From positions 62,001 to 126,000 of the forward strand of contig CAISYC010000066.1 in the NCBI GenBank assembly GCA_903889565.1: a stretch of DNA of 64,000 bases, written 5' to 3'. This document shows positions 19,939-61,533 of the stretch, piece by piece; position 1 is the stretch's first letter, and each line of letters opens with the position of its first letter. A program made the position numbers and the translations under genes. The notes below the pieces were generated by a model. The model had not been told where the DNA came from. It was given only the letters and a program-made list of their open reading frames with translations, and did not search any database. This DNA comes from an uncultured beta proteobacterium. GTDB lineage: Bacteria; Pseudomonadota; Gammaproteobacteria; Burkholderiales; SG8-41.

Positions 19939-19956
19939 TGTGCGCCAGCGAACATA
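19939..19956. promoter_or_regulatory. Palindromic regulatory box (GTNCGC-N2-GCGNAC), copy 1
   Basis: TGTGCGCCAGCGAACATA has the perfect core GTGCGC-CA-GCGAAC. It lies in the divergent region between the glycine-zipper gene (minus, 63 bp away) and a Crp/Fnr regulator gene (plus, start 20139). The minus-strand hexamer CACAAT starts 30.5 bp from the centre, the class II activator geometry. Confidence 0.75.
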
Positions 19957-20138
19957 CATGCGCAAGTCGGTTGCTTTATCCTGCGGACGATGCGATAGTC
20001 CGCCCGCGTTGCAGCGAACTCCATCGCATCACGGCCACGCGCCCGCCGGCGGCCGATCGCGGCAACCGAATTGCACCGACGACTCCGCGTGTCGCCGCCA
20101 CGACGTCAACGCAGGCAACATTCACCGGAGTCCATTCG

Positions 20139-20849
20139 ATGCCAACGCAATCGCCACCGTACCTCGCCAATCATCTGCTCGCCGCCATGCCGCGCAGCGC
20201 CGCGAAAAAAATGTGCGCAGCCCTCGCGCCGGTCCGGCTGGTCTATGGGCAGGTGTTGTATGAACCGCTGGCACCGATCCGTTATGTCTACTTTCCAATT
20301 GACTGCCTCGTCTCGCTGCTCACTGCAGTCGATCGCGAGCGCAGTCTCGAGGTCGGCATGGTCGGCAACGAGGGCATGGTCGGCATGCCGATGGTTCTCG
20401 GCATCGGCGTCTCGGCCGTGCGCGCACTGGTGCAGGGCAGCGGCAGCGCGCTGCGCCTGAGTGCGACCCAATTTCGCAACGAGTTCGCAAAAAGCCCGCC
20501 GCTGCAACAAGCACTGTTCCGCTACACACATCTGTTGATGGCGCAGGTTTCGCAAACCGCCGCCTGCAACCGCTTTCACGACGCGGAGGCCCGCCTCGCG
20601 CGCTGGCTGTTGATGACCGCCGACCGTTTGCATGCGGACGAATTCCGTCTGACGCATGAATTTCTGGCGCATATGCTGGGCGTGCGCCGGGTCGGCGTAA
20701 CCATGGCGGCGAGCGATCTGGAGCGCAAAAAACTGATCTCTTACAGCCGCGGCAATATCCACATCCTGAGCCGTCGCCGGCTCGAGGCGGCCTCCTGCAG
20801 CTGCTACCGCATCGTGCGCGATCTGCAGGACAAAACACACGCCGCATAA
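20139..20849 (+). CDS. Crp/Fnr-family transcriptional regulator (paralog 1)
   Basis: A protein of 236 residues with a cupin-like effector domain (about 15-120), a dimerisation helix (about 122-160) and a winged helix-turn-helix (about 168-215). The phosphate-binding cassette of CRP is degenerate (GNEGMVGMPMVLG), and the N-terminal cysteine cluster of FNR is absent, so neither cAMP nor a 4Fe-4S cluster is expected. It shares TAACNR (Cys143), the recognition segment MLGVRRVGVT and the C-terminal CSCY (Cys220, Cys222) with the second regulator at 46008..46748. The start at 20139 has GGAG 9 nt upstream. Palindrome copy 1 lies 183 bp upstream, fitting autoregulation. Confidence 0.9.
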   Translation: MPTQSPPYLANHLLAAMPRSAAKKMCAALAPVRLVYGQVLYEPLAPIRYVYFPIDCLVSLLTAVDRERSLEVGMVGNEGMVGMPMVLGIGVSAVRALVQGSGSALRLSATQFRNEFAKSPPLQQALFRYTHLLMAQVSQTAACNRFHDAEARLARWLLMTADRLHADEFRLTHEFLAHMLGVRRVGVTMAASDLERKKLISYSRGNIHILSRRRLEAASCSCYRIVRDLQDKTHAA

Positions 20850-20885
20850 GCAGGCGCGCCGGAACAGGATGGCCGGCGCACGCAC

Positions 20886-20918
20886 GAAGACGCGCCGGCC
20901 ATGGGCCGGCGCGTCTTC
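20886..20918. terminator. 15-bp perfect hairpin between convergent genes
   Basis: GAAGACGCGCCGGCC, loop ATG, then the exact complement. It sits between the Crp/Fnr gene stop (20849) and the lipoprotein gene stop (20936). There is no T-tract on either side, so it may be a bidirectional terminator of weak class or an mRNA end stabiliser. Confidence 0.6.
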
Positions 20919-20935
20919 GAACGGCGACTGCTGCT

Positions 20936-21157
20936 TTATCTCTGCTTGCCGACCTGGTTGCCGATAATGCCGCCAACCGCCGCGCCACCGACCGTGCCGA
21001 TTGCACTGCCGCCAGTCAGAACCGCGCCGCCGACTGCGCCGACGCCGGCACCGATCGCGGTATCTTTGTCACGCGTCGACATGTCGCCGCAACCGCCAAG
21101 ACCGAGCAATACCGCCGCGGCCACCATGCTTGCCGTGATACCCATTTTCGTTTTCAT
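20936..21157 (-). CDS. Small glycine-zipper lipoprotein (OsmB-like)
   Basis: A protein of 73 residues with a lipoprotein signal (LLGLGGC, lipidation at Cys of GGC) and a glycine zipper (AIGAGVGAVGGAVLTGG, TVGGAAVGGIIGNQVGKQR). OsmB-type lipoproteins are osmotically and stationary-phase induced. It is probably the last gene of the CsbD-headed unit (22096 to 20936). Confidence 0.82.
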   Translation of the reverse strand: MKTKMGITASMVAAAVLLGLGGCGDMSTRDKDTAIGAGVGAVGGAVLTGGSAIGTVGGAAVGGIIGNQVGKQR

Positions 21158-21209
21158 GAGAGTGCCTCTTTGTCAAACCGCTGTTGTAAAACACGTGCGC
21201 CGCGATGCC

Positions 21210-21824
21210 TTACGACTGGCCGTAGCGCGCCTTCGCCTCCTTGATGCAATTGGTTTTGGCGTCATTCGCAAAGGTGTCGCACTTTTCCCTGGCGACCGCG
21301 TAATCCGCATTGCGCTTGTCGGTTGCCGCATCGTTACGCGCGGCTGCCTTCGCCTCGCCGGCCGCGACATTCGCCGCGCCGGTCTTCCGGGTGGCGGCAT
21401 CGTTGGCATTGGACGTTTTCAGCAATGCGGTGGCGTCGGCCTTGGCTGAAACACGGGCGGCTTTCGCTTCCTTGACGCAGACATCCTTGTCATTGCCAGC
21501 CTTGTCGTCGCATTTTTCGATCGCCACCGCGTAATCGCCGTCCGCTTTGGCGATGCTGACGTTGTAATGCGTTTTATTGGTCGGCTTGTAACCGTCATCA
21601 AGCTCCGCCTGGGCGACGTTTTTCCGGCCCATGGCTTCCGCCTTGCAGATGTCTTTGGCGTTGGCAGCGAACGAATCGCAGGCAGCGCCGGCGGTCTTGT
21701 AATCGGAACCGATGGTGCCCCTGGCCTTGTTGTAGTCGTCTTTTGACATGGTTGCCGCGGTCGCGGCGCCGCAGAAAGCCAGAGCGACAGCCGAAACCAT
21801 CGCCGCGAGTTTGAATTTGTTCAT
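21210..21824 (-). CDS. Exported repeat protein with paired Cys motifs
   Basis: A protein of 204 residues with a signal peptide (to about ATA). Three related segments follow with the pattern Y-x-x-A-x-x-x-C-D, then A-K-D-x-C-x-x-E-A (ACDSFAANAKDICKAEA, KCDDKAGNDKDVCVKEA, KCDTFANDAKTNCIKEA), joined by Ala/Lys/Asp-rich helices. Cys pairs nine to ten residues apart suggest a disulfide in each helical hairpin. The start at 21824 has AAGGAA upstream and replaces a longer frame from 21917. No named function; it lies between CsbD and the lipoprotein gene. Confidence 0.75.
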   Translation of the reverse strand: MNKFKLAAMVSAVALAFCGAATAATMSKDDYNKARGTIGSDYKTAGAACDSFAANAKDICKAEAMGRKNVAQAELDDGYKPTNKTHYNVSIAKADGDYAVAIEKCDDKAGNDKDVCVKEAKAARVSAKADATALLKTSNANDAATRKTGAANVAAGEAKAAARNDAATDKRNADYAVAREKCDTFANDAKTNCIKEAKARYGQS

Positions 21825-21877
21825 ATTGATTTCCTTGTTAGGTTGTTTGCGATTGCATTCACCGAAGTCCGGCCGCG

Positions 21878-22096
21878 TCAGTCGATGTGATAATTGTCTT
21901 TCATGCGCTTCTGCCATTCGTCGAGCTGATTTTCGGTTTCGTCCCTGGTCAGGCCGTAGGTCTCCTGAATCTTTCCGGCAAGGTGTTCGCGCCTGCCGGC
22001 AATGACGTCAATCTGATCGTCGGTGAGCCGGCCCCACTGCTCCTTGACGTTGCCTTTGAATTGTTTCCAGTTGCCTTCGATGCGGTCCCAGTTCAT
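21878..22096 (-). CDS. CsbD family stress protein (copy 1)
   Basis: A cytoplasmic protein of 72 residues matching CsbD: MNWDRIEGNWKQFKGNVKEQ, then WGRLTDDQIDVIAGRREHLAGKIQETYG and a helical tail. CsbD-like proteins are general-stress induced, abundant and of unknown activity. The start at 22096 has AGGAG upstream; the longer frame to 22264 would run into the palindrome. The box at 22248..22265 with GACAAT at 22226..22221 is its likely promoter. Confidence 0.9.
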   Translation of the reverse strand: MNWDRIEGNWKQFKGNVKEQWGRLTDDQIDVIAGRREHLAGKIQETYGLTRDETENQLDEWQKRMKDNYHID

Positions 22097-22139
22097 TGCT
22101 GCTCCTTGAGCTTGATTGACGACATTCGGCAACACCCGG

Positions 22140-22751
22140 CTACACTGCGCACTGCCATCCGGTTTCACGCGGCGGAGTTCGCGACAGCGGCTTGCCTGCC
22201 ACTGCGTTGCCGTTGAAGCCATTGTCAGCGCCGGCCTCGCGATTGACCGTTCGCTGGCGAACATACGTCAATACTTTTTGCAAACGCGGCGCCTGCCTGT
22301 TCCCGCAATGACGCCCGTATGCGCGGACGGCGATGACCATGAAGCAACAGGGCAGCAACCACAACAGCAGCATGCCTGCGAGGAATTGCCAACGTTGACC
22401 GTCTGCCTGTTCACGCAGAATCCGCCGGTATTCGGCGGCCACCAGCGCCGTCTGTTCGCCGCTGGTGTTGCCGGGGAAACTCAGCGCGACGCCGTTCATC
22501 ATGTAGACGACGCGCGAGACCGGCGACCATACCAGCGGGTCGCGCCGCGCCTTGCGCGCGACCTCCACCGCCGCCTCATCGCCACGCAGAATGGCCTCCG
22601 CTGCAGCCGACATTTGTGAAAGATATCGCGCATCCTCGGGCATCGTGTTTGCGCGCGGCAGGTTCATCCACGCCAATGCCGCGGCGATCACCGTCCACAC
22701 CAGCAGGAGCGCCGCCCACAGCGGCCACCACGTTCCGAATCGATTAACCAT
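22140..22751 (-). CDS. Membrane protein of unknown function between AI-2E transporter and CsbD genes
   Basis: A protein of 203 residues from the ATG at 22751. An N-terminal membrane helix (about 8-28), a helical periplasmic stretch (MPEDARYLSQMSAAAEAIL, VSRVVYMMNGVALSFPGN) and a second helix (about 138-160) are visible. The tail after about residue 165 is polar and Arg-rich and contains the palindrome of the downstream CsbD promoter, so it may not be conserved. No family recognised. It lies 77 nt after the AI-2E-type transporter stop. Confidence 0.55.
   Translation of the reverse strand: MVNRFGTWWPLWAALLLVWTVIAAALAWMNLPRANTMPEDARYLSQMSAAAEAILRGDEAAVEVARKARRDPLVWSPVSRVVYMMNGVALSFPGNTSGEQTALVAAEYRRILREQADGQRWQFLAGMLLLWLLPCCFMVIAVRAYGRHCGNRQAPRLQKVLTYVRQRTVNREAGADNGFNGNAVAGKPLSRTPPRETGWQCAV
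22248..22265 (-). promoter_or_regulatory. Palindromic regulatory box, copy 2 (csbD promoter)
   Basis: The core is GTTCGC-TG-GCGAAC, perfect and fully symmetric. The minus-strand hexamer GACAAT at 22226..22221 starts 30.5 bp from the centre. It lies inside the 3' end of the upstream gene and 152 bp from the CsbD start. Confidence 0.75.
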
Positions 22752-22828
22752 CAATGCATCTTCGGCCGTGCGCGATACGCGGTCTGTACGGCAGCGAGCA
22801 TTGGGCGCCAGCCAGCCGGCTTCGGCGC

Positions 22829-23980: not shown

Positions 23981-24019
23981 CACCGGCTGCCTCCGCGCAT
24001 AGCGGCGGCTTTCACGGCC

Positions 24020-24598
24020 TTACTTCTTGAGGCTCATCTGATTGTCGACGCTCTTCACGCCCTTGATACCGCGCGTCACTTCGAGCGCGCGGTCGATCTG
24101 CCCGGGATTGTTGACGAAACCGCTCAGTTGCACGGCGCCTTTGCGCGTCTTTACCGCAATGTCGCCGCTCTTGACGTCGGCATCGGCGAGCAGCGCAGTC
24201 TTGACCTGTGCCGTCACGATATCGTCGTCGACTTCATTGCCGAGCGTGGTCGGCGTGCCTTTCAATACCACGTTGTTTTCGATGCCCTTGACGCCCGCGA
24301 CGCCGCGCGTCACCTCGATCGCACGATCGATCTGCGGCTGGTTGGCGACAAAGCCGCTTAATTGCACCTCGCCATTGCGCGTTTCTACCTTGAATTCGAA
24401 GCTGCGCACGACTTCGTCGGCGAACAAGGCGGCCTTGACCCGCGCCGTCACCACACTGTCGTCGATGTCGGTGCCGACCGACACCGCAGGCGGCCGCGCG
24501 CCCGTGGTGTCGGGCGCCTTGCTGCAAGCCGCAAGCGTCAACAGCGTTGCCCCAAGCAGTGCTGCGGGTGTCAATAACGAATGGCGGCAGCGTGTCAT
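24020..24598 (-). CDS. BON-domain lipoprotein (two BON domains, OsmY-like)
   Basis: A protein of 192 residues with a lipoprotein signal (LLTLAAC, lipidation Cys about residue 25) and two BON domains. Each has the pattern D-D-x-V-T-A-x-V-K-x-A-L, then G-x-V-Q-L-S-G-F-V and a helix ending in G-V-K-x-x-x-N. BON domains bind phospholipid surfaces; OsmY-like proteins protect the envelope in osmotic stress. The start at 24598 gives a normal signal. Palindrome 24666..24681 lies 68 bp upstream. Confidence 0.9.
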
Positions 24599-24665
24599 CG
24601 GAATCTTTCGTGTCCGGCGGGCGGGTGGAGTTGGGCGAACCATCCCCGATTCGGCCGGAATTCTC

Positions 24666-24681
24666 TGTGCGCTAGCGCACG
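24666..24681. promoter_or_regulatory. Palindromic regulatory box, copy 3 (divergent BON / glucan synthase)
   Basis: TGTGCGC-TA-GCGCACG is a perfect core and a 14-bp perfect palindrome. It sits between the divergent BON gene (68 bp) and the cyclic glucan synthase (152 bp). The plus-strand hexamer CAACAT (24703..24708) has the right spacing; the minus-strand equivalent is weaker, so the glucan synthase may be the main target. Confidence 0.7.
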
Positions 24682-24832
24682 TTGCCGCCTCGCCATTCCT
24701 GTCAACATCGAGCCGCTTCCGCCGGATGCCCGGTGGAAGCATGTCTGCGGTCTTGTCAGGCGACAGGATGCGCTTGCAGCAAGCACGCAGCCGGCGATCC
24801 TGCCGCTGCCCGTTCAGCAAAGGAAATCCCAC

Positions 24833-33925: not shown

Positions 33926-34070
33926 ACAGGACAACACGCGTCGCGAAAAAACACAATCCCGCGCGGCCGTACGCGCCGCGGAAAAATCTCAGGCACCGAT
34001 CATGTTCAACGACAACCCGATTGAAATGATCCATCCGTCGAGATGCGGATTCCCATCATCGATGAGCGCG

Positions 34071-34088
34071 CGGTACGATAGCGTACCG
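34071..34088 (+). promoter_or_regulatory. Palindromic regulatory box, copy 4 (one mismatch; DsbA-like gene)
   Basis: CGGTACG-ATAG-CGTACCG is a 7-bp perfect inverted repeat; in the common frame the core is GTACGA-TA-GCGTAC, one mismatch. The plus-strand hexamer TAAATA (34110..34115) starts 30.5 bp from the centre, upstream of the gene at 34138. The rest of 33926..34137 shows no gene. Confidence 0.6.
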
Positions 34089-34137
34089 ACAAGGCGCGCT
34101 CACTGCGACTAAATATCTGTTTGAACAGGAGTGCATC

Positions 34138-35267: not shown

Positions 35268-35391
35268 TATCTTTTCTCCCAGGCAAACGCTTGCCCCCGG
35301 AATGAGGACAATACGGCAATCAGGCGTCGGCGCATGCCGTTAATGGCAATCCCCCGACGCCACCAGTATCGTTTCATACAAAGAGGATTTC

Positions 35392-35409
35392 CGTACGCCA
35401 GCGCACATA
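35392..35409 (-). promoter_or_regulatory. Palindromic regulatory box, copy 5 (Lys-rich repeat gene)
   Basis: The core GTACGC-CA-GCGCAC is perfect. The minus-strand hexamer GATACT (35370..35365) starts 30.5 bp from the centre. It is 125 bp from the start codon at 35267 and 63 bp from the fumC stop at 35472. Confidence 0.75.
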
Positions 35410-35471
35410 CGACCGGAAACGGCTGACGTGGCGAGAATGCGAGGGGTGCCGCGAAAGTGCGGCGGGTCGGG

Positions 35472-44796: not shown

Positions 44797-44858
44797 CCTG
44801 CGCTTCCTTCGTCAGTGCGAACGAGTTTTGGATTGTCGCCGGCGCTGTCGTTTTACAC

Positions 44859-44876
44859 TGTGCGCTGGCGAACATA
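44859..44876 (-). promoter_or_regulatory. Palindromic regulatory box, copy 6 (ackA-xfp operon promoter)
   Basis: TGTGCGCTGGCGAACATA has the perfect core GTGCGC-TG-GCGAAC. GACAAT at 44837..44832 starts 30.5 bp from the centre, identical spacing to copy 1. It places central carbon metabolism under the same control as the stress genes. Confidence 0.78.
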
Positions 44877-44896
44877 TCCACCGTAGCGGCCCGCAA

Positions 44897-45270: not shown

Positions 45271-45363
45271 GATGATTCCTTTCACGTCGCTGACAAAAAC
45301 TGCATGCGCGATTGCCGGCAGTGCGCCAACGCCATGACAATGCGGTAATGAGTGACTGTCTTC

Positions 45364-45379
45364 CGTGCGCTTGCGCGCA
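45364..45379 (-). promoter_or_regulatory. Palindromic regulatory box, copy 7 (one mismatch; collagen-like gene)
   Basis: The core GTGCGC-TT-GCGCGC deviates at one position. It is 94 bp upstream of the collagen-like lipoprotein start and 34 bp past the stop of the PRC-barrel gene. The -10 at the expected spacing is poor, so this copy is less certain. Confidence 0.45.
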
Positions 45380-45412
45380 TTGCCGCGCTTTTTTACCGGT
45401 GATCGCGGATGG

Positions 45413-46007: not shown

Positions 46008-46748
46008 TCAATGCGCGCGGGCAATTTCCCGGGAATTGCCGACATCCGAAAGGAGGCGGCTGAATTCCTTCTTGACCACCGCATAACATTCGCATGTCAG
46101 GGTTTCCAGACCGGCGCGCTTGAGCACCGAAATATGGCCGCGACTGTAGCGGATATAACCGGCGCGCTGCAATTTGCCGGCGGACTCGGTGATGCCCTCG
46201 CGCCGCACACCGAGCATGCTGGCGACCAGTTCCTGCGTCATCACCAGATCGCCGCCGGGCAGACGGTCCAGCGTCAGCAGCAGCCATCGGCACAGTTGCT
46301 GTTCGACCGAATGATGCCGGTTACAGGCAGCGGTCTGGAACATCTGCGTGACCAGCGCCTGTGTATAGCGCAGCAACAGGCGCTGGGCCGCGCCGGCCAG
46401 GTTGAATTCCTGTTTGAGCACGCGCGCAGGCAGGCGGTAGCCGAAACCGGCGGTCTGCACCACTGCCGAGCTCGGCGTGGTATCCCCACCCATGAACAGC
46501 GGCACGCCGACCACGCCCTCGTTGCCGACACCGGCGGTTTCCGCGGAGGCGCCCGACTCCATCACGTATTGCAGAGACACGATCGCGGTGGTGGGAAAAT
46601 ACGCATGCGGCATCGGTCCGCCGGGCTCATACAGCATCTCGCCCAGCAACATCGGCGTCAGCTGAAGATGCGGCAGCAGCCGCTCGTATGCTTCAGCAGG
46701 CAAAGCCGCCAGCAGGTGATTTTGACGCGGGTTGTGTTGCAAGGGCAT
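46008..46748 (-). CDS. Crp/Fnr-family transcriptional regulator (paralog 2)
   Basis: A protein of 246 residues with the same architecture as the regulator at 20139: a cupin-like domain with degenerate cassette GNEGVVGVPLFMGG, the dimer helix with TAACNR (Cys142), a winged helix with MLGVRREGIT, and the C-terminal CECY (Cys219, Cys221). No FNR-type cysteine cluster is present. It is co-transcribed behind a histidine kinase and response regulator (15-nt gap) from a promoter carrying the palindrome at 50033. Identical Arg pairs in the recognition helix of both paralogs suggest the same DNA target. Confidence 0.9.
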   Translation of the reverse strand: MPLQHNPRQNHLLAALPAEAYERLLPHLQLTPMLLGEMLYEPGGPMPHAYFPTTAIVSLQYVMESGASAETAGVGNEGVVGVPLFMGGDTTPSSAVVQTAGFGYRLPARVLKQEFNLAGAAQRLLLRYTQALVTQMFQTAACNRHHSVEQQLCRWLLLTLDRLPGGDLVMTQELVASMLGVRREGITESAGKLQRAGYIRYSRGHISVLKRAGLETLTCECYAVVKKEFSRLLSDVGNSREIARAH

Positions 46749-46763: not shown

Positions 46764-47585
46764 TTAGTGCTTTGCAATCAGTTCGACACCGATGCCGCGA
46801 TAGCCGACGAAACGCGAGGACTGATTGAACATCGGCTGGCCGCTGACCTGGAATTTCTGGCTGGAGCCGTCGTCATTCACGCGGCTGAAAATAAAATCGA
46901 GAAAGGGCTGGCGTGCCGCGATCTTCGATTGCAACAACTCGCGCTCCGCCTTGTTCCAGCCGGAGGCCTCGACCGCAGAGTCGCCGTCAGCGAGCGAGGC
47001 GACGCGGATGCCCAGCATTTCCAGCACCGGTCCGGAAACCTTGGTGAAGCTGCCGCTCTCGTCCTGCTCCCAGTACCAGTCGGAGGCGAGTTCGGTCAGG
47101 CTGCGAAACCGCGCCTCGCTCTCGCGCAATTCGGCGGTGCGCTCAGCGACCGTCTGCTCGAGCAATTTGCTGTAATTCTCCAGCCGCTTGTATAACAGGC
47201 GCACCTCCAGCATGTTGTGAATGCGCGTTCTGACCTCGACCAGATCGAACGGCTTGCTGATGAAATCCTTGGCGCCGGCCTGCAATGCCCGCAGTTTATG
47301 CCCGGGCTGGGCGGTCAGCACGATCACCGACAGGTAGCTATCGGCCTCGTTGGTCTTGAGTCCCTCCATGACCTGAAAGCCATCCATCACCGGCATCTGC
47401 AGATCGAGCAGGATCAAATCGTAGGCATTCTTCCGATGCATCGCACAGACCTCCTGCGGATGCTCGGTCGAAGTCACGTTGGTATAGCCTGCGTCGGCGA
47501 GCAATTGCTCGAGCAGGACGATATTGGCTTCCTGATCATCGACAATCAGTATTCGCGCGCTCAGGACGTCGGGGGTACTCATCAT
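46764..47585 (-). CDS. Response regulator with PAS domain
   Basis: A protein of 273 residues: a receiver domain (about 10-125, LILLDLQMPVMDGF with phospho-acceptor Asp near 62, Lys of ISKPFD), a short coiled coil (LLEQTVAERTAELRESEARF) and a PAS domain (about 160-270). There is no DNA-binding or output enzyme domain, so it probably relays a signal by protein contact. Its ATG overlaps the stop of the hybrid kinase gene. The regulator gene follows after 15 nt. Confidence 0.88.
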   Translation of the reverse strand: MMSTPDVLSARILIVDDQEANIVLLEQLLADAGYTNVTSTEHPQEVCAMHRKNAYDLILLDLQMPVMDGFQVMEGLKTNEADSYLSVIVLTAQPGHKLRALQAGAKDFISKPFDLVEVRTRIHNMLEVRLLYKRLENYSKLLEQTVAERTAELRESEARFRSLTELASDWYWEQDESGSFTKVSGPVLEMLGIRVASLADGDSAVEASGWNKAERELLQSKIAARQPFLDFIFSRVNDDGSSQKFQVSGQPMFNQSSRFVGYRGIGVELIAKH

Positions 47586-49906
47586 GGCGTTTTTTCCTCT
47601 GTAACAGGATGGGTGGTGTCGCGGGTCAATGCGAGTTCGAGTGCAAGGTCCAGCGTGGCCATGAACTCAATCAACTTGATCGGCTTGGTCATGTAGCGGA
47701 AAAATTCCGCCGCCAGGCCCTTTTCGATGTCGCGCTGCATCGCATTCGCGCTCAAGGCTACCACCGGAATATGCTCGGTCAGCGGGTCGTGCGACAGGAT
47801 GCGCAACGCTTCGAAACCGGAGATGCCGGGCAGATTAATGTCCATCAGAATGACGTCGGGACGCACGGCATGGGCGAGTTCGATGCCACGAATGCCGTCG
47901 TGCGCGCTGACCAGCCGCAGGTCGGATCGGCGCGCAATCATATCCTCGACCAGCGTCAGGTTCGCCGGATTGTCTTCGACGTAAAGCAGCGTGCGCACTT
48001 TGCTGCTGCTGGTTACTGCTGCGGCCGGAGCGGCCGGCAACTCGGCCGCAACCAGCGGCGCCGCCGTGATATTGAGTTCGATCCAGAACACGCTGCCCTG
48101 ACCGAGCACGCTCTCGACGCCGATGACGCCACCCATCAGTTCGATCAGCCGCTTGCACACGACCAGCCCGATGCCGGTACCCTCCTCGACATCGGTTTCC
48201 TGGCCGAGACGGTTGAATGGCTGAAACAACTGTGCAAGCTTGTCTGCCGGTAATCCGACGCCGGTATCGGTGACGCACAGGCGCAGGCGCTGCGAATTGC
48301 CGACGATGCAGTCGATCGTCACCGAGCCGTCGCTGCTGTTGTATTTGATCGCATTCGACAACAGATTGATGATGACCTGCTTGACGCGAGTGCGGTCGGC
48401 CCGCACGAAATAGTTGTCGTCCAATTGCGGAAAACTCATGCGGATACCGCGTTTGGCCGCCTGCGGTTCGATCATGGTCTGGCATTCGCGCATGACGTCG
48501 GACAGTGAAATCGGCTCCATCGACAGCGACAGCTTGCCGGACTCGATCAGCGCGAGATCGAGAATTTCATTGATCAGATCGAGCAGGTACCAACCGGCCT
48601 TGAGGATCTGATCGATGCTGCGTTTCTGCGACACCGTCGGTTGCGGCAACCCGGATTCCATCAACTGGGCGAAACCGAGAATCGCGCTCAGTGGCGTGCG
48701 CAACTCGTGGCTCATATTCGACAAAAACTCGGATTTGGCGAGATTGGCCTTTTCCGCCATCAATTTGGTGCGCTCCAGCTCGAGGCTGCGCTCATGCAGC
48801 ACCTGATCGAGACGCTTGCGTTCGGTGACGTCGCGAAATACCAGCACCGCGCCGACCACGCGGCCTTCGCGGTCGCGGATCGGCGCGCAGCTGTCGGCGA
48901 TATGGCATTCGCTGCCGCCACGCGCAAGCACCACTGTGTGATTGGCCAGCCCCTGTATCGTATTGTGGGTCAGCGCGTCGCGTACCGGCACTCGCGAAGG
49001 CTCGCGGGTTTCAGCGTTGAGTATACGAAACACCTCCTCGATGGGATGGTCGGCGGCCTCCGCCACCGTCCACCCCGTGAGCTGTTCGGCCAGCGGGTTC
49101 ATCAGCGTTACGCGGCCCCCTACATCAGTGGCAATCACCGCGTCGCCGATCGAATTGAGCGTCACCGCCAGGCGTTCCTCGCTAATGTGCAGCGTGGTGT
49201 TGGCCTGCTGCAACCGTTCGTTGGTGGCGGTCTGGCTGTCGAGCAGATGGCTGGTCTCAAGATGCACGAGATCGCGCAGGCGATGGCGCGATTCGCGAAA
49301 TACAAGCCAGGCAAACGACAATGCCAGCAGAAAGGTAAACAGGCCGGCCGTCACGATCAGGGCAAACATATGTCGCAGGCTCGCCCGCAACTCGTCGTCA
49401 TGCCGCGCGAGCACGTCCTCTTCGACGCCAATGTAGGCGTTCATCTCGACGCGTATGGCGTCCATCAGGCGCTTGCCTTCCGCGCTGCCGCCGGCGGCAG
49501 CCAGCAATGCCGTCATTTCGCGCTGGCGGCGCAGCTGAACGACTTTCGACATATCGTTCATTTTGGCGTCCAGCAGCGGACCCAGCGCGTCGAGATGTTC
49601 GCGCGCTGCGGGCACGTGCGTAAATTCGCGCAAATGCGCCAGATGCCCTTCGATATTTTCACGCACCGCCAGATAAGGCGCCAGAAATGCTTCGTCGCCG
49701 GTCAGCGAAAAGCCGCGCTGCCCGGTCTCGGCATCCTTGAGTTCGGACAGCAATGCATTGGCGGCGCTGATCAGCGTATAGGACTGTTTGCGCGCTACGC
49801 TGGATGTTTCAATCTGGCCGAAGGCCCAGAACGACAGAACCGCGACGATGACCACCATCAGACCCGCACCGAGCAGCGCGAGGAGAATCTTGCGATCAGT
49901 TTTCAA
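47582..49906 (-). CDS. Hybrid sensor histidine kinase (CHASE3-PAS-HisKA-HATPase-REC)
   Basis: An inner-membrane sensor of 774 residues. Two membrane helices (about 8-30 and 182-205) flank a periplasmic CHASE3-type domain (KDAETGQRGFSLTGDEAFL). A PAS domain (about 245-365), the phospho-acceptor motif SNMSHELRTPL with His near 400, the ATPase domain (NLLSNAIKYN, GTGIGLVVCKRL) and a C-terminal receiver (ILMDINLPGISG, about 645-765) follow. It starts an operon with a receiver-PAS protein and a Crp/Fnr regulator. The palindrome at 50033 with hexamer GTATAT lies 127 bp upstream. Confidence 0.92.
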   Translation of the reverse strand: MKTDRKILLALLGAGLMVVIVAVLSFWAFGQIETSSVARKQSYTLISAANALLSELKDAETGQRGFSLTGDEAFLAPYLAVRENIEGHLAHLREFTHVPAAREHLDALGPLLDAKMNDMSKVVQLRRQREMTALLAAAGGSAEGKRLMDAIRVEMNAYIGVEEDVLARHDDELRASLRHMFALIVTAGLFTFLLALSFAWLVFRESRHRLRDLVHLETSHLLDSQTATNERLQQANTTLHISEERLAVTLNSIGDAVIATDVGGRVTLMNPLAEQLTGWTVAEAADHPIEEVFRILNAETREPSRVPVRDALTHNTIQGLANHTVVLARGGSECHIADSCAPIRDREGRVVGAVLVFRDVTERKRLDQVLHERSLELERTKLMAEKANLAKSEFLSNMSHELRTPLSAILGFAQLMESGLPQPTVSQKRSIDQILKAGWYLLDLINEILDLALIESGKLSLSMEPISLSDVMRECQTMIEPQAAKRGIRMSFPQLDDNYFVRADRTRVKQVIINLLSNAIKYNSSDGSVTIDCIVGNSQRLRLCVTDTGVGLPADKLAQLFQPFNRLGQETDVEEGTGIGLVVCKRLIELMGGVIGVESVLGQGSVFWIELNITAAPLVAAELPAAPAAAVTSSSKVRTLLYVEDNPANLTLVEDMIARRSDLRLVSAHDGIRGIELAHAVRPDVILMDINLPGISGFEALRILSHDPLTEHIPVVALSANAMQRDIEKGLAAEFFRYMTKPIKLIEFMATLDLALELALTRDTTHPVTEEKTP

Positions 49907-50032
49907 TAGACATTACACGCCACCTGCGACGAGCCCTGTTAAATGACTTCCAGACCCGCGCGCCAACAGCCACGGCGCACAGGTGAAAAGCAACAGCCCT
50001 GACTTATATACGCGGATGGCTCCGCCCCGGTC

Positions 50033-50050
50033 TGTACGCTTGCGAACATA
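50033..50050 (-). promoter_or_regulatory. Palindromic regulatory box, copy 8 (kinase-RR-Crp/Fnr operon)
   Basis: TGTACGCTTGCGAACATA has the perfect core GTACGC-TT-GCGAAC. The minus-strand hexamer GTATAT (50011..50006) starts 30.5 bp from the centre. It allows autoregulation of the second Crp/Fnr paralog. Confidence 0.78.
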
Positions 50051-50160
50051 TCAACAGATAAGCCGGCAGCGGGGGAACGCGGACGGGGGAAATCGCCAGT
50101 GGCGCCTTCCCCGCACCGGTTCCGCCGATTGTTGCGGGAACGTTCCGGACCGGCCGGATG

Positions 50161-50490: not shown

Positions 50491-50599
50491 GGCCTGTCCA
50501 GTCTTTTCAGTTGAGAAATGATGTTTCCAGCTTACGGACTCGACACCGCCTGCGGTGCGTCGTCGTGCCCGGATTCTCCGCATTGACCTCAGCACGCTC

Positions 50600-50617
50600 T
50601 GTGCGTCTCCGCACATA
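50600..50617 (-). promoter_or_regulatory. Palindromic regulatory box, copy 9 (BON gene; symmetric variant)
   Basis: TGTGCGTCTCCGCACATA keeps a perfect 5-bp symmetry GTGCG/CGCAC and the TGT...ACATA flanks but differs at both inner positions. The minus-strand hexamer GAGAAT (50578..50573) starts 30.5 bp from the centre. Confidence 0.65.
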
Positions 50618-50813
50618 CGGAACATTTAATTCTGCATAGCGTGGCAGTCCTTTCGCGGCTGCGCGAAGCGCCCGCCATGAAACGGCTGCCAATGCTTGTT
50701 TCGCCTGCCCTGCCGCCGGGGAGTCCCACCGCCGCCAAGGCGAAACGGTGCGATGGCCGCGCGCCGCGGGATTTTTTTCAAATCGATGGCAAATGCAGCG
50801 CTGTGTTCGCCAC

Positions 50814-50829
50814 CGCACGGAGCGCGCCG
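50814..50829 (+). promoter_or_regulatory. Palindromic regulatory box, copy 10 (one mismatch; DUF3300 operon)
   Basis: The core GTTCGC-CA-CCGCAC has one mismatch. The plus-strand hexamer GACAAT (50851..50856) starts 29.5 bp from the centre, upstream of the gene at 50895. The same hexamer is found at the csbD and ackA promoters. Confidence 0.6.
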
Positions 50830-50894
50830 GCCGCAACGAAGACAATCGGCCACCACTTTCCTCGCGTCACCTGCCAATGGAATGGAAACGCCCC

Positions 50895-52349
50895 ATGAAT
50901 CGATCCGCATCGTCCCGTCTGAACCGTCTTTACGGTCTGCTGCTCGTGGTGACAATGGCGCTGTGCCAGCAAAATATCGCATTGGCGCAGGACGCCGCCG
51001 CGTTCTCGCAGCCGGAACTCGATCAGATGCTGGCGCCGGTGGCGCTTTATCCGGACGCCCTGCTGTCGCAAATCATGATGGCAGCAACCTATCCGCTCGA
51101 AGTGGTCGAGGCCGCGCGCTGGTCGCACGCCAATCCAGGGCTTGCGGGCGAACGCGCGGTCAATGCGGTCGAACGCAACAACTGGGACCCCAGCGTTAAA
51201 TCGATGGTCGCCTTCCCGCAGATTCTCGGCATGATGAGCGACAAGCTCGACTGGACAGAGCGTCTGGGTGACGCCTTCCTCGATCAGGAATCGCAGGTCA
51301 TGGATACGGTGCAGGATCTGCGCCACCGCGCCTATGCCAGCGGCAACCTGCGCTCCAACGACAATTACCGCGTCAATTCGAGCGGCGATTACATCGACAT
51401 CGACGAGACCAATCCGGGATTCGCCTACGTGCCCTATTACGACCCGGGCGTGGTCTACGGCCCGTGGCGATCGCCGCAGTATCCGCCGGTCTACTGGGCA
51501 CCGTGGCCGGGTTATCGCGAGCGCGCGGGCTTCGGCGCTGGTTTCGCCTGGGGTGCGGGCATCGCCCTCGGCAACGAATTTTTCTTCGGCGCCCTCGATT
51601 GGCGACAGCACCGCGTCGATGTGGTCAACGTCAACAATTCCTATTACCCGCGCAATGCCGGTTCTGCCAACCGCTCGCAGGCTGCGTGGCAACACGCTCC
51701 GGAGCACCGCCGCGGCATCCCTTACCGTGCAGCCGCGGTGCGCAGCCGATTCAGCGGCGGCGCCACGGCCATCGACTCGCGGCGCGATTTCCGCGGCCGC
51801 GCAGCGCCGGCAGCGATGCCCGCGGAGCGCAAAGACAATCGAGCGGATCTGCGCGCCGGCGCAAGCGACCGACCCGACGAACGCAGCGCCGGCAAAGCGG
51901 CGGCGACGGCAACTGCAGGCAACAACCGTGGCGCAGCAGCAGTCAATGCGAGAACGCCGGCGGCCACCGCGCCGGTACGCCCGGACCTGCGCGACAATCG
52001 CCGCGACGCGCGCAACAACACCCCTGCCGTCATAGCGGCCCCGGCAAAACCCGAAACGCGCAGCGCACGCCCCGCGCCGACGGCGCGCGCAGCGGCCGAG
52101 CCGGCGCCGCACGCACTGGAGAATATCGGCCGCGGTTCTGAAGCACGCAACGCCAGCGAGCGCGGCCGCGCCAGCACTGCGCCGGCAGCACCCCGTGCAC
52201 CGGAACGCGCTGCCGCGCCAACCCAACGCCAGGCGGCGCCAATGCAACGCCAGGCCGCGCCCGCGCCACCCCAGCATGCTGCCGCCCCGGCGCAGGCCGC
52301 GCATGAAAGACCGCGCGAGAGTCCGGGCAAGGGCCGGCAGGAAAAATAG
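50895..52349 (+). CDS. DUF3300 family exported protein
   Basis: A protein of 484 residues with a signal peptide (to about ALAQ). The DUF3300 core (about 35-250) shows FSQPELDQMLAPVALYPDAL, LSQIMMAATYPLEVVEAARW, SVKSMVAFPQILGMMSDKLD and the Tyr/Pro-rich NPGFAYVPYYDPGVVYGPW. The C-terminal half is low-complexity, rich in Ala, Arg and Pro. Function unknown; DUF3300 genes typically precede a DUF2950 gene, as here. The start at 50895 fits the signal peptide. It is the first gene of a four-gene envelope operon. Confidence 0.88.
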   Translation: MNRSASSRLNRLYGLLLVVTMALCQQNIALAQDAAAFSQPELDQMLAPVALYPDALLSQIMMAATYPLEVVEAARWSHANPGLAGERAVNAVERNNWDPSVKSMVAFPQILGMMSDKLDWTERLGDAFLDQESQVMDTVQDLRHRAYASGNLRSNDNYRVNSSGDYIDIDETNPGFAYVPYYDPGVVYGPWRSPQYPPVYWAPWPGYRERAGFGAGFAWGAGIALGNEFFFGALDWRQHRVDVVNVNNSYYPRNAGSANRSQAAWQHAPEHRRGIPYRAAAVRSRFSGGATAIDSRRDFRGRAAPAAMPAERKDNRADLRAGASDRPDERSAGKAAATATAGNNRGAAAVNARTPAATAPVRPDLRDNRRDARNNTPAVIAAPAKPETRSARPAPTARAAAEPAPHALENIGRGSEARNASERGRASTAPAAPRAPERAAAPTQRQAAPMQRQAAPAPPQHAAAPAQAAHERPRESPGKGRQEK

Positions 52350-52385
52350 ACCGGCAGTGTTTTAATCATTCACAAGGCAGATGCG

Positions 52386-55398: not shown

Positions 55399-55419
55399 CA
55401 CCAGGCCGCGCAAGCGGCA

Positions 55420-57545: not shown

Positions 57546-57551
57546 GTCGGG

Positions 57552-59633
57552 TCAGGCCTCGTGACTGAATTCCTGCGCGGCGAACTCCAGCGCAACATCC
57601 AGCGTTTCGAGAAACTCACCGACCTTGATCGGCTTGGTCAGATAACGGAAAAAGCCGGCTTCGAGCCCGCGTTCGATGTCGCGCGGAATCGCGTTGGCAC
57701 TCAGGGCCACCACCGGAATATGTGCAGTGGCGGTATCTGCGCGCAAGATCTGCATTGCCTTGATGCCGCTCATGCCGGGCAGGTTGATATCCATCAGAAT
57801 GACGTCCGGACGCGCGCTGCGCGCGATGTCGATACCGAGCGTGCCGTTGCGCGCGCTCAGCAGCCGGATGTCCGGACGTCGCGCAATGATCTGCTCGACC
57901 AGTTGCAGATTGGCCGGATTGTCCTCGACATAGAGCAGGGTGCGCGAAGCCACGCCCTCCACCGCCGCCGGCTGGCGGGCGACAATGTGATCGGCCTCGC
58001 CGGCCTCAAGTTGCGGCGCGGCCGCCACCACCAGTTCGATCCAGAACACGCTGCCTTTGCCGACGATACTGGAGACGCCGATTGCGCCGCCCATCATTTC
58101 GACCAGACGCTTGGTCACCACCAGTCCGATGCCGGTGCCCTCTTCGCCCCCGCCCTCCTGGCCGAGCCGGTTGAACGGCTGGAACAACTGCAGAAGCTTT
58201 TCCGTCGACAAGCCTGCACCGGTGTCGGTGACGCTGACACGGATACGCTGCGGCGCCGGCTCGCTGACCTCTACCACCACCGCGCCGCCGGGTTGGTTGT
58301 ATTTGATTGCGTTGGACAACAGGTTGATCAGCACCTGCTTCACGCGCGTGCGGTCGGCCTTGATGAAACTGTGGATGGCGGCCTCCGGAAACGAAATGCG
58401 GATACCGCGTTTTTGCGCCTGCGGCTCGATCATGGTGCGGCACTCCGACATCACATCGTGCAGCGACATCGGCTCCAGCGACCACGACAGGCGCCCGGAC
58501 TCGATCATTGCCAGATCGAGAATCTCGTTGATCAGTTCCATCAGATACCAGCCGGCCTGCAGGATTTGCGCGATGCTTTGCTTTTGCGACGGCGTCGGCA
58601 GCGGCGTGTCGGTTTCCATCAGCTGCGCGAAACCCAGTATGGCGTTGAGCGGCGTGCGCAGCTCGTGACTCATGCTCGACAGAAAATCGGATTTGGCGAG
58701 GTTGGCTTTTTCCGCCACCGATTTGGCATTGGTCAGCTCCGCCTCGACTTTGCGCCGCTCGGTCAGATCGCGCGTCAGCTTGGCAAAGCCGCGCAGATTG
58801 CCCATCTGGTCGCGGATCGCGGTGAACACCACGTTGGCCCAGAAGGTCGAGCCGTCCTTGCGCACGCGCCAGCCTTCGTCCTCAAAGCGGCCCTTGGTGG
58901 TGACGACATCGAGATCGCGCTGCGGCGCACCGCTGTCGATATCCTGGCGCGGATAAAAACGCGAAAAATGCTGGCCGACGATTTCCTCGGCGCTGTAGCC
59001 CTTGATGCGCTGCGCGCCGCTGTTCCAGCTCACCACCAGTCCCGCCGGGTCGAGCATCACGATGCCGTAGTCGCTCACACTCTCCACCATCAGGCGAAAG
59101 CTCTCCTCGGTCCAGCGCAGCTGTTCCTCGACCTGCTTGCGCGCCGAGTTGTCGGTGCCGATCAACAGGTAACCGATGATGTTGTTGGCAGCATCGCGCA
59201 GCGCGGTGACCGACACGATCGCCGGAAAACGGCTGCCGTCCTTTCGGATGTAGGTCAGTTCGTATTTGTCCTCGATGCCGCGCGAGGCCTTGAACACCAG
59301 CGCTTCGAAGCCCGGCGTGATCGCGGTGGCGAGTTCCTGGCTCAGCACCACCGCGCGCGCGATGACCTCCTGCGGATCCGAGATATGCGCCGGCGTGATC
59401 TTGTTGACCATCTCGGCGGCGGCGTAACCGAGCATGCGCTCGGCGCCGATGTTAAACAACTGGATGATGCCCTTTTCATCGGTCGCGATGATCGAAAAAT
59501 TGGCGCTGTTCAGAATGGCGTCCTGCAGCGCACCGGTTTTCAATAACGCCTCTTCGCGCAGCACCTCGATGCTCGCCGCGTCGCTCGCAGTCGCACGCCC
59601 GGGGGCGGCAGATTCCAGATCATTTGGGGGCAT
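57552..59633 (-). CDS. Hybrid histidine kinase (PAS-PAS-HisKA-HATPase-REC), soluble
   Basis: A protein of 693 residues with no membrane segment, from the ATG at 59633 (GGAG 8 nt upstream). Two PAS domains (about 35-160 and 165-285), the phospho-acceptor motif SSMSHELRTPL, the ATPase motifs (NLLSNAIKYN, GTGIGLVVTKRL) and a C-terminal receiver (ILMDINLPGMSG) are visible. It is closely similar in design to the kinase at 47582, suggesting duplication. It is co-transcribed with two GGDEF genes, linking a sensory signal to cyclic di-GMP. A weak palindrome lies 100 bp upstream. Confidence 0.9.
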   Translation of the reverse strand: MPPNDLESAAPGRATASDAASIEVLREEALLKTGALQDAILNSANFSIIATDEKGIIQLFNIGAERMLGYAAAEMVNKITPAHISDPQEVIARAVVLSQELATAITPGFEALVFKASRGIEDKYELTYIRKDGSRFPAIVSVTALRDAANNIIGYLLIGTDNSARKQVEEQLRWTEESFRLMVESVSDYGIVMLDPAGLVVSWNSGAQRIKGYSAEEIVGQHFSRFYPRQDIDSGAPQRDLDVVTTKGRFEDEGWRVRKDGSTFWANVVFTAIRDQMGNLRGFAKLTRDLTERRKVEAELTNAKSVAEKANLAKSDFLSSMSHELRTPLNAILGFAQLMETDTPLPTPSQKQSIAQILQAGWYLMELINEILDLAMIESGRLSWSLEPMSLHDVMSECRTMIEPQAQKRGIRISFPEAAIHSFIKADRTRVKQVLINLLSNAIKYNQPGGAVVVEVSEPAPQRIRVSVTDTGAGLSTEKLLQLFQPFNRLGQEGGGEEGTGIGLVVTKRLVEMMGGAIGVSSIVGKGSVFWIELVVAAAPQLEAGEADHIVARQPAAVEGVASRTLLYVEDNPANLQLVEQIIARRPDIRLLSARNGTLGIDIARSARPDVILMDINLPGMSGIKAMQILRADTATAHIPVVALSANAIPRDIERGLEAGFFRYLTKPIKVGEFLETLDVALEFAAQEFSHEA

Positions 59634-59732
59634 GCCGGTGGCTCCGCTAAATACTTCAGATGTTGGTGCCGTTCCGGGTGGGGGGACATCAAAACGGCTG
59701 GACCAGATATAGCCGGTTTCACCGTCGCGCTC

Positions 59733-59748
59733 TGTGCGGCGACACACA
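59733..59748 (-). promoter_or_regulatory. Degenerate palindromic box, copy 11 (kinase-GGDEF operon)
   Basis: TGTGCGG-CG-ACACACA keeps the outer TGTGCG and ACA but has three core mismatches. A minus-strand hexamer TATCTG lies near 59709..59704 at about the right spacing. Low-confidence member of the set. Confidence 0.3.
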
Positions 59749-59765
59749 CAAGGAAAAGATTCGGG

Positions 59766-60734
59766 TCAGCGGGCGCCGCCCTGGCGCTGCAAAATCAGAT
59801 CGCGGGTTTCGCGCGTGGCGCCGGCATACGGCCCGTCGATTGCGGCGGCGCGCTCGATCAACAGCAGCGCCTCGTCGTTGCGCCCCTCGTCCGACAGCGT
59901 CTGTGCCAGATTGTTCAGCACCGCCACCGAGTCCGGATGATGGTCGGCGGCAAGCCGCAGCACGGCCTCGGCTGCAGCAAGCGCGCCGTTCGCATAAAAA
60001 CGGTTGGCGAGCCCGACGCTGGCCGTGACGTCGTCCGGCCAGCGCGCGAGCAGCGTTTCATAGGCCGTCTGCACTGCAGGCGCATCGGCCACCCGCGCCA
60101 TCGCGACGACGGCCGCCAGCCATGACGATTCCGTCGCGGTGACGGCAATGCGCGCGGGCGGCAGAGTCACCATCGCCCAATAACCGCTTTTCTTCCACGT
60201 GTATTCGAGCACGAAGAATGGCATCAGCAGACGTTGTTTCTGACCAGAGCGCACGATCAACTCGCCTTTGGGATAGTCGTAACCCACCACCACCGCGTAA
60301 TGCCATGCGTTGCCGAAATTCTGCAACACGATCACCGGCGTGCCGGCGGCGATTTCGCGCAGCAAATCCTCGAGCCGCGGTGCGAGTTGGTAGGCCACCA
60401 TGCCGTAGCGGCGCGGCGTGGCCAGCATTTCGACTTGCAGACTGCCCTGGCGTGCCGGCAGATAAACCTGCGCCGCCAGATCGTCAGGCGTAACCTTGAC
60501 CTTGAAATGGGCGAGCGAGGTCGCCAGCGCCGCCGGGCCGCATTGGTAATCCTCTTGCGGGAAGAACGGCACATCGGTGAGCTCGACGCGCTCGGGCAAA
60601 CCGGCCGGCCAGGCATCGCGCAACACTGCCGCCTGCGGCGCCATCGACGCGCAACCGCCGAGGACTGCAACAAGCAGCAAAACGCCCGCCGTCTGGCGGG
60701 CGCTCCGTGACCATTGCTGAAACAACAAAATCAT
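59766..60734 (-). CDS. PA2778-type C39-like cysteine peptidase lipoprotein with TPR
   Basis: A protein of 322 residues with a lipoprotein signal (LLVAVLGGC), a C39-like peptidase domain (DVPFFPQEDYQCGPAALATS with the Cys, HYAVVVGYD with the His) and C-terminal TPR-like helices (SVAVLNNLAQTLSDEGRNDEA). It is probably a periplasmic or outer-membrane peptidase of unknown target. The ATG at 60734 overlaps the stop of the PA2779-like gene, so the pair is coupled. Confidence 0.85.
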   Translation of the reverse strand: MILLFQQWSRSARQTAGVLLLVAVLGGCASMAPQAAVLRDAWPAGLPERVELTDVPFFPQEDYQCGPAALATSLAHFKVKVTPDDLAAQVYLPARQGSLQVEMLATPRRYGMVAYQLAPRLEDLLREIAAGTPVIVLQNFGNAWHYAVVVGYDYPKGELIVRSGQKQRLLMPFFVLEYTWKKSGYWAMVTLPPARIAVTATESSWLAAVVAMARVADAPAVQTAYETLLARWPDDVTASVGLANRFYANGALAAAEAVLRLAADHHPDSVAVLNNLAQTLSDEGRNDEALLLIERAAAIDGPYAGATRETRDLILQRQGGAR

Positions 60735-61090
60735 TTCCAGGTGAAATACACCACCAGACCGACCACGATCAGCAGCACGACCCAACCGCCGTCCCACATG
60801 GCGCCGGCCGGCAGGGAATTGATCCTGCCCGCCAGGGTATGCACTTCATCGTTAGTCATGGCAGCGACACGATCCTGCGCGAGTTTCGGATCGACGCCCA
60901 TCGCCTGCAATTGGCTCGTCACGTCAGCGCGCGTCAGCGCAGCGGTAACAACAGTGCGATCCGCCTGCACGGTCGTGGCCGAAAGCATCTGCTCGGCGCC
61001 CACCATGCCGGCGGTGGCCAGCGGCAGTTGCAGTAAAAAAAATGACGCGATCAGAAAACGGCAGATCATCTTGATTCCGGTCGATTGCAT
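60731..61090 (-). CDS. PA2779-type small membrane protein
   Basis: A protein of 119 residues with an N-terminal signal or helix (MICRFLIASFFLLQLPLATA), a helical middle (LTRADVTSQLQAMGVDPKLAQDRVAAM, NDEVHTLAGRI) and a C-terminal membrane helix (WDGGWVVLLIVVGLVVYFTWK). The start at 61090 has AGGAG 6 nt upstream. The family is nearly always next to a PA2778-type peptidase; whether it is a substrate or partner is not known. Confidence 0.82.
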   Translation of the reverse strand: MQSTGIKMICRFLIASFFLLQLPLATAGMVGAEQMLSATTVQADRTVVTAALTRADVTSQLQAMGVDPKLAQDRVAAMTNDEVHTLAGRINSLPAGAMWDGGWVVLLIVVGLVVYFTWK

Positions 61091-61141
61091 GTGATTCTCC
61101 TTGGGTGAATGGATTTGAAACGGGTTGAACCTTGTTCCGCA

Positions 61142-61318
61142 TTAAGTGCTTTTCTTGACTGCTTCCTTGAGGTCGCCGTAGCCCGCCTGCACCTTGCCGA
61201 CCGCCTGCTGAACCCTGCCCTTTTGTTCGAGATTCGGATTGCCGACCACCTTGCCGGCAGCGGCCTTGACTTTGCCGGTGGCTTCTTCGACGCGCCCTTT
61301 GACCTGATCCTTGTTCAT
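61142..61318 (-). CDS. CsbD family stress protein (copy 2)
   Basis: A protein of 58 residues: start MNKDQVKGRVEEATGKVKAA, then AGKVVGNPNLEQKGRVQQAVGKVQ and a helical end. It is a short CsbD form distinct from the copy at 21878. AGGAG lies upstream of the ATG. The palindrome at 61516..61533 with hexamer TATAAC (61495..61490) is its likely promoter, giving a leader of about 165 nt. Confidence 0.9.
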   Translation of the reverse strand: MNKDQVKGRVEEATGKVKAAAGKVVGNPNLEQKGRVQQAVGKVQAGYGDLKEAVKKST

Positions 61319-61515
61319 CGCCTGCTCCTGAAAGTTAATTTGGAAAACGCAGGTTGTTCCGAATGGATTCCAATGCGTTCCGACTGCGAGATTGCCCACC
61401 GTTGCCACTGCAGTCTGTTCGTTAACGTACTGTCGATGCGACAATCGAATACAGGCGCCAACGCCTGCATGCGCGGACCGAACCGGCACGTTATAACGGG
61501 CCGCACCGCGGGTTC

Positions 61516-61533
61516 TGTACGCAAGCGCACACA
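61516..61533 (-). promoter_or_regulatory. Palindromic regulatory box, copy 12 (second csbD)
   Basis: TGTACGCAAGCGCACACA has the perfect core GTACGC-AA-GCGCAC. The minus-strand hexamer TATAAC (61495..61490) starts 29.5 bp from the centre. It is the rightmost clear copy. Confidence 0.75.

Follow-up and report, generated by a model that had tools for sequence, protein, structure and literature searches.

Introduction

CRP at class II promoters binds a 22-bp palindrome that has a 16-bp core, carries a G at position 5 and is centred at -41.5. The recognition residues of CRP are R180, E181 and R185. FNR binds the box TTGAT-N4-ATCAA, and activators of the FNR/ANR/FixK type also act at -41.5. The small stress proteins of the CsbD, BON, glycine-zipper and similar kinds are widespread and poorly understood. 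This work concerns a palindrome that recurs upstream of genes of these kinds in a stretch of 64,000 nucleotides from an uncultured beta proteobacterium, and the protein CrpA that is proposed to bind it. The whole stretch, referred to as the window, covers positions 62001-126000 of contig C66 (CAISYC010000066.1; 174 kb, 87% called coding) in a genome of 5.04 Mb and 74 contigs.

We read the palindrome as the operator of CrpA, which would be an activator of a so far nameless subfamily of the Crp/Fnr superfamily and would drive a stress/metabolism regulon. The probability that we assign to this reading, which was derived from sequence comparison, is roughly 0.8. The box itself and its promoter position are beyond reasonable doubt in computational terms. 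Both the role of CrpA as the binder and activation by CrpA are considered likely. The genes of the window that are central to this reading are as follows.

46008..46748, minus strand: crpA, Crp/Fnr-type, proposed binder; recognition helix VRREGITESAG; HTH_Crp_2
46764..47585, minus strand: response regulator with a receiver domain and no DNA-binding domain by Pfam
47582..49906, minus strand: CHASE3-PAS hybrid histidine kinase by Pfam
20139..20849, plus strand: crpB, second Crp/Fnr-type gene; helix VRRVGVT; HTH_Crp_2 at 54.9 bits

Comparison with described systems

The box resembles the CRP site in palindrome length, core length, half-site spacing, the position of the G and the centre. It differs in composition: the half-site is TGTNCG in the box and TGTGA in CRP, and the box does not read TGTGA-N6-TCACA. 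The proteins also differ. The third recognition residue is mostly E in CrpA and R in CRP, the set R180, E181 and R185 is not reproduced in CrpA, and its N-terminal cyclic nucleotide (cNMP)-binding-like domain lies just under the Pfam cut-off (PF00027, 26.6 bits against 27.5). R183, which is invariant in CrpA, corresponds in position to the arginine through which CRP recognises the G, and this G is invariant in the box.

The Crp-type helix-turn-helix of CrpA (PF13545, 48.3 bits against a cut-off of 27) places it in the same superfamily as FNR, ANR and FixK. However, the composition of the box is not TTGAT-N4-ATCAA, and the N-terminal Fe-S cysteine cluster of FNR proper is absent, as CrpA has no cysteine before C142. 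The best score of CrpA against the Crp/Fnr equivalogs of NCBIfam is 19.2 bits against a cut-off of 274, and a search by sequence against solved structures gave three weak matches (best E 0.0017). Three cysteines (C142, C219 and C221) do not vary among the 45 CrpA sequences that were aligned. A redox or metal signal acting through them is conceivable as a guess. These cysteines, which include a C-E-C-Y motif near the C-terminus of CrpA that is also found as CxCY in CrpB, are a possible sensor.

The low-oxygen-activated (lxa) locus of Burkholderia cenocepacia is likewise a clustered stress/metabolism island in a betaproteobacterium, a likeness in general outline. No description of the box, the protein or the gene set was found in the open-access literature, which was the scope of the search (subscription papers and regulon databases lay outside it). 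The parts of PMC12531629, PMC6446978, PMC9201469 (its primer passage) and PMC5343134 that were covered contain no description of the box.

A 22-bp palindrome at a fixed promoter position

A preliminary description of the window, made from its letters alone, had named seven perfect copies of a 14-bp core. All seven are present as exact matches to GTNCGCNNGCGNAC (19940, 22249, 24667, 35393, 44860, 50034, and 61517), each one base to the right of the start given there. Under Markov models of order 1-3, 0.24-0.53 cores are expected per window, in agreement with the earlier estimate of less than one in 64 kb. Spacings other than the observed one, in the range 0-8, gave zero matches in the window.

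The core with one mismatch is not above chance in the window (14 matches against a shuffled mean of 12.2), and the near copies thus need a longer matrix. Genome-wide, the bare 14-bp core is present in 31 copies and its reversed form, the kind of control that was used for matrices and patterns, in 19. It therefore discriminates poorly, though it is strikingly clustered, with 11 of the 31 on C66. Two detectors were abandoned: the short core alone, which is weak genome-wide and at chance level with one mismatch, was dropped for the 22-bp matrix, and an initial extended pattern, CTGTNCGCNNGCGNACAG, proved too stringent when applied to relatives.

Aligning the copies revealed a longer palindrome. 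The box spans about 20-22 bp, not 14, and extends far beyond this genome. The first matrix (22 bp) was built from 16 sites of C66. The second matrix was re-estimated from 180 sites of other genomes and has the central consensus TMTGTNCGCTAGCGNACAKA; it is not fully independent because its sites were found with the first.

The first matrix at a score of at least 15 identified 40 sites, and none reversed, in sequence of the own genome that was partly chosen for matches. The second matrix at a score of at least 16 identified 28 sites in the 174 kb of C66 (2 coding; reversed 0), 12 sites in 552 kb of other stretches of the genome, many of them chosen for matches or crp genes (reversed 1), and 3 sites, 2 of them coding, in 400 kb that had not been chosen for sites (reversed 0). 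In the window it found 14 sites at a threshold of 11, of which 13 are intergenic, against one reversed. The frequency of the motif in coding DNA, which the preliminary description had put forward as a check, is low both on C66 (2/28 sites) and in relatives (3/222), and the motif avoids genes. A second cluster of boxes in the genome lies on contig C68 (246001-266000, locus L027), ahead of genes that by eye encode a Ysc84-like protein and an enzyme resembling aconitase.

The position of the box relative to the promoter was measured by scoring a -10 hexamer at every offset (8-79) from the box centre, using intergenic sites with a gene pointing away. In the own genome, 33 of the 54 site-gene pairs have a -10 score above 2 at offset 29, and the other offsets gave 0-6. 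In relatives, offset 29 was found in 121 of 250 pairs (other offsets: mean 11.3, maximum 21), compared with 9 of 110 sides that lack a qualifying gene. Because the matrix does not include the hexamer, the peak is not built in. Offset 29 places the box centre at -41.5 relative to the predicted starts, the class II position. These results bear out the spacing first proposed, with the hexamer at offset 29 in most cases and at 28 or 30 in a few. They also support the proposed activator centred near -41.5.

The copies might instead be a repetitive extragenic palindromic (REP)-like repeat or arise artefactually from the GC-rich composition, a reading that we regard as hardly credible. The chance-level count of one-mismatch cores speaks for it, as do two genomes of the same genus, G008 and G009 (loci L035-L038), in which perfect GTNCGCNNGCGNAC cores number 150 and 263; those listed for G009 are mostly GTGCGCTTGCGCAC and often paired 27 bp apart. 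However, the extended pattern gives 0 and 9 matches in these two genomes, the reversed matrices give 0 at a score of at least 15, and the copies of the box differ in sequence while they keep a fixed distance to the -10. A REP element has near-identical, paired intergenic copies, which fits G008 and G009 only; the boxes vary and sit at promoters. The repeats of these two genomes look REP-type and unrelated to the regulon.

Association of the box with CrpA

Loci were fetched solely by their similarity to the protein 46008-46748, and the best 80 of at least 575 confirmed were used. Their titles include Thiobacillus, Massilia, Undibacterium, Collimonas, Aromatoleum, Halomonas, Sedimenticola, and Dyella. 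These 80 CrpA loci contain 224 sites at a score of at least 15, distributed over 69 loci, against 0 reversed. The sites are intergenic in 219 of 222 cases (222 and 224 differ by rounding), even though called coding sequence makes up 76% of the DNA. By pattern, the CrpA loci carry 133 boxes per Mb. Of the 109 matches that lie in 41 full-length loci, 23 fall in the kilobase before crpA, the richest bin. CrpA occurs in many environmental bacteria; it was found at E 1e-60 in 34 of 398 sampled members of the phylum, and 17 of 29 further CrpA loci from other genomes carry a site of at least 14 within about 1.5 kb, with one reversed match overall. Among the CrpA loci, L073, L081, and L088 come from metagenome bins titled Klebsiella pneumoniae and Bordetella parapertussis; they are 73-77% identical to that of the window, and the titles may be wrong.

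Co-occurrence was assessed in 120 relative genomes, where a CrpA or CrpB hit was called at E 1e-30 and the box excess was the number of extended-box matches minus the reversed control. The median excess is 6 in the 53 genomes with CrpA/B and 0 in the 67 without (p 9e-10). It is 9.5 versus 1 within the own family (p 2e-8) and 13 versus 3 within the own genus (p 0.014); kinship is ignored in all three p values.

CrpB is 43% identical to CrpA; crpB is a likely target, and its product is a possible partner or competitor of CrpA. It is unlikely that the box is bound mainly by CrpB, or by both proteins with one activating and the other competing. That arrangement would suit a box that precedes crpB in the window, the 12 of 74 loci in which crpB stands directly after crpA on the same strand, and the shared R183 and VRR.GVT..A frame (R182 is found in 22 of 25 CrpB sequences). 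It would not suit the genomes that have one of the two proteins only, where an excess of at least 8 was found in 8 of 23 with CrpA and in 0 of 5 with CrpB (very few of the latter; both groups were sorted by hand), or the base-level covariation reported in the following section, which tracks CrpA. The proposal that a Crp/Fnr protein of the window binds the box survived the computation, and of the two proteins the one encoded at 46008 fits better.

Covariation of the recognition helix with the base beside the core

The helix residues were compared in an alignment of 99 CrpA sequences. The helix is nearly fixed as VRREG(V/I)TEAAG. R182 and R183 are found in 99/99 sequences, E184 in 96/99, and E at the third position in 87/99. 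The exceptions L106, L117, and L124 have S184, and all three together have one site at a score of at least 15. S184 relatives (family f32) retain the linkage between core and gene, but with an altered base before GT.

The idea of an S-type box arose on L106, L117, and L173. In 13 S184 loci, the shared core GTNCGNYRNCGNAC was found 13 times against 1 reversed, and T precedes GT in 2 of 24 intergenic half-sites; this result is partly post hoc. The core test on these loci had been set after viewing the data, so new loci were fetched and the test was repeated unchanged. The new set consists of 31 loci, from which L238, L251, and L259 (P or A at position 184) were dropped before the count to leave 28. 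These 28 loci exhibit 50 cores, of which 47 are intergenic, against 1 reversed, and T is found in 25 of 94 half-sites. The effect on T is smaller than in the first 13 loci and has the same direction. E-type loci have T in 162/234 and 32/48 half-sites, which differs from the S184 loci with p 2e-12 and 5e-6, respectively. The E-type loci L208 and L209, which also belong to family f32, have mostly T. The linkage of the core to crpA thus persists as the flanking base changes with the helix, and we take this as the best indication that the box is read by CrpA itself.

The S184 clade of CrpA (P or A in a few members) comprises L106, L117, L124, L194-L207, and L231-L261. Its boxes have mostly C or G in place of T before GT, a natural change of specificity.

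The genes around crpA were compared in 74 loci. In 29 of them crpA is directly preceded by a relative of the receiver gene, in 14 it is directly followed by a hybrid kinase, and in 12 directly followed by crpB. With hybrid kinases and receivers adjoining crpA in many loci, another linked regulator, for example a NarL-type response regulator, could be the binder and crpA a mere neighbour. We hold this to be very improbable, as the regulator of the window is receiver-only by Pfam, the box sequence shifts with the recognition helix of CrpA, and boxes directly precede crpA in many lineages.

Box sites and candidate targets

The 14 sites of the window are given below with their second-matrix scores and the offset at which a -10-like hexamer starts.

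19936..19957, no strand assigned, 27.4: between a glycine-zipper gene (19304-19840, minus) and crpB (plus); CACAAT at offset 29 on the minus side, TATCCT at offset 30 on the plus side
22245..22266, minus, 19.4: upstream of csbD (21878-22096); GACAAT at offset 29
22782..22803, minus, 16.0: weaker box, 41 bp before the open reading frame (ORF) 22140-22751
24663..24684, no strand assigned, 23.5: between a BON gene (24020-24484, minus) and a GH94 glucan synthase gene (24833-33664, plus)
34069..34090, plus, 14.5: weak box upstream of a DsbA-fold/Thioredoxin_4 gene (34138-34695); TAAATA at offset 30
35389..35410, minus, 26.0: upstream of the gene for a Lys-rich protein (34758-35267); GATACT at offset 29
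44856..44877, minus, 22.8: upstream of the acetate kinase run; GACAAT at offset 29
45361..45382, minus, 14.2: weak box upstream of the gene for a collagen-repeat protein (44947-45270)
50030..50051, minus, 24.7: upstream of the kinase-regulator-crpA run; GTATAT at offset 29, TATATA at offset 30
50597..50618, no strand assigned, 22.7: upstream of a BON gene (50161-50445, minus); GAGAAT at offset 29
50801..50822, plus, 20.5: upstream of a DUF3300 gene (50877-52349); GACAAT at offset 29
59730..59751, minus, 20.4: upstream of a PAS hybrid kinase gene (57552-59633); TATATC at offset 29
61413..61434, minus, 18.0: 105 bp before csbD (61142-61318)
61513..61534, minus, 24.7: 205 bp before csbD (61142-61318); TATAAC at offset 28

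The near copies that had been named at 34071, 45364, 50600, 50814, and, as weak, 59733 are recovered by the second matrix with scores of 14.2-22.7. The copy placed at 50814 probably represents the site 50801-50822, given in a shifted register. The sites at 22782 and 61413 are absent from the preliminary description. The core at 22249 falls inside the called ORF 22140-22751, 159 bp before csbD. The run behind the 44856 box extends from 44796 down to 36941 and consists of acetate kinase, phosphoketolase, 6-phosphogluconate dehydrogenase, glucose-6-phosphate dehydrogenase, HAD, and transaldolase. The DUF883 gene (18461-18850) and the gene at 18890-19051 sit beyond the glycine-zipper gene from the 19936 box and are candidate targets. 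Pfam agrees with the target products as they had been named, except that the proposed DUF1328 protein (18890-19051) and the Lys-rich protein have no Pfam match. Small proteins with collagen-like repeats are found near boxes both in the window (44947-45270) and at C66:138380, and their function is obscure. Outside the boxed region, a run of cbb3-type oxidase genes was recognised by eye at 5384-12769 of the window.

Recurrence before related genes was assessed in the CrpA loci by asking whether the relatives of window genes carry a site in the 400 bp before them, as 20% of all called genes do. Sites were found for CsbD relatives (9/16 and 4/7), BON relatives (10/21 and 9/17), glycine-zipper relatives (6/9 and 8/14), relatives of the gene at 21210-21824 (4/4), and Crp-type genes (54/110). 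Kinases (18/64 and 20/96) and glucan synthase (6/16) are not clearly enriched over 20%. Relatives of the AI-2E transporter (0/8) and of the regulator inside the kinase run (1/61) have few sites or none. The genes ackA, xfp, gnd, zwf, and tal each have fewer than 4 relatives in the CrpA loci. Conservation upstream of related genes, a check that had been suggested at the outset, is thus seen for CsbD, BON, and glycine-zipper genes, and not clearly for kinases and glucan synthase.

Target genes were also compared with length-matched other genes of the same loci. Among the families listed, the counts are 24/110 versus 9 for the Crp-type helix-turn-helix, 10 versus 3 for HisKA, 8 versus 2 for CsbD, and 9 for glycine zipper and 6 for BON, each versus at most 2. 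The claim of a stress/metabolism regulon has withstood these computational tests, in that the box avoids coding DNA and recurs before related stress genes.

Two other Crp/Fnr genes of this genome, which appear FNR-type and CRP-type by eye, are preceded by boxes at L040:819-840 (23.7, contig C68) and L046:975-996 (18.5, contig C23). The regulon may thus feed into oxygen and carbon control.

Discussion

In the mechanism that we propose, a dimer of CrpA would bind the 16-bp core TGTNCG-N4-CGNACA centred at -41.5. From this position it would recruit RNA polymerase in the class II manner and replace a -35 element. The predicted regulon would comprise the envelope and stress proteins CsbD, BON, and glycine zipper, with OmpA in relatives. 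In this genome the phosphoketolase/pentose-phosphate run would belong to it as well, and the cyclic-glucan synthase might. CrpA would drive its own kinase-regulator-crpA run as well as crpB, and other crp genes in relatives. CrpA itself may be controlled by the neighbouring phosphorelay, a link that is plausible given a regulator in which Pfam finds no DNA-binding domain.

Several observations weigh against CrpA as the reader of the box. In the window, no box stands directly before crpA, and the box of its run precedes the kinase gene 3.3 kb upstream. Sites at the thresholds used above are lacking in 11 of the 80 CrpA loci, some of them on short contigs, in 12 of the 29 further relatives, and in 8 of 13 loci of a group in family f32 that is about 60% identical. 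The box excess is below 8 in 29 of the 53 genomes with a CrpA/B hit and reaches at least 8 in 2 of the 67 without one (G012 and G014). The co-occurrence statistics are uncorrected for phylogeny. The matrix applied to relatives was built on sites of this genome, and it in turn yielded the sites behind the second matrix. The first and stricter form of the covariation test failed, as strict boxes of the CCGTNCG type with at most 2 mismatches numbered 15 versus 12 reversed in the 13 S184 loci. T is found in 3 of 8 half-sites of the seven loci nearest to L117, and the change of the helix is essentially confined to one clade.

A broader proposal is put forward tentatively, and we rate it at somewhat less than even. 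The box and CrpA may represent an unrecognised general stress response across Beta- and Gammaproteobacteria. In such a response, a Crp/Fnr activator would supply the DNA-binding output that a hybrid-kinase phosphorelay lacks, autoregulate, and control its sister crp genes. It would switch envelope-stress proteins and, in this organism, the phosphoketolase/pentose-phosphate bypass.

The box is readable, which makes the control of small stress proteins testable from sequence in many genera, and it provides a predicted target set for an uncharacterised Crp/Fnr subfamily. It also raises the question by what route a kinase and a regulator made up of a receiver alone communicate with a Crp/Fnr protein. 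The natural change from E to S in the recognition helix offers a handle on how the Crp/Fnr superfamily reads DNA.

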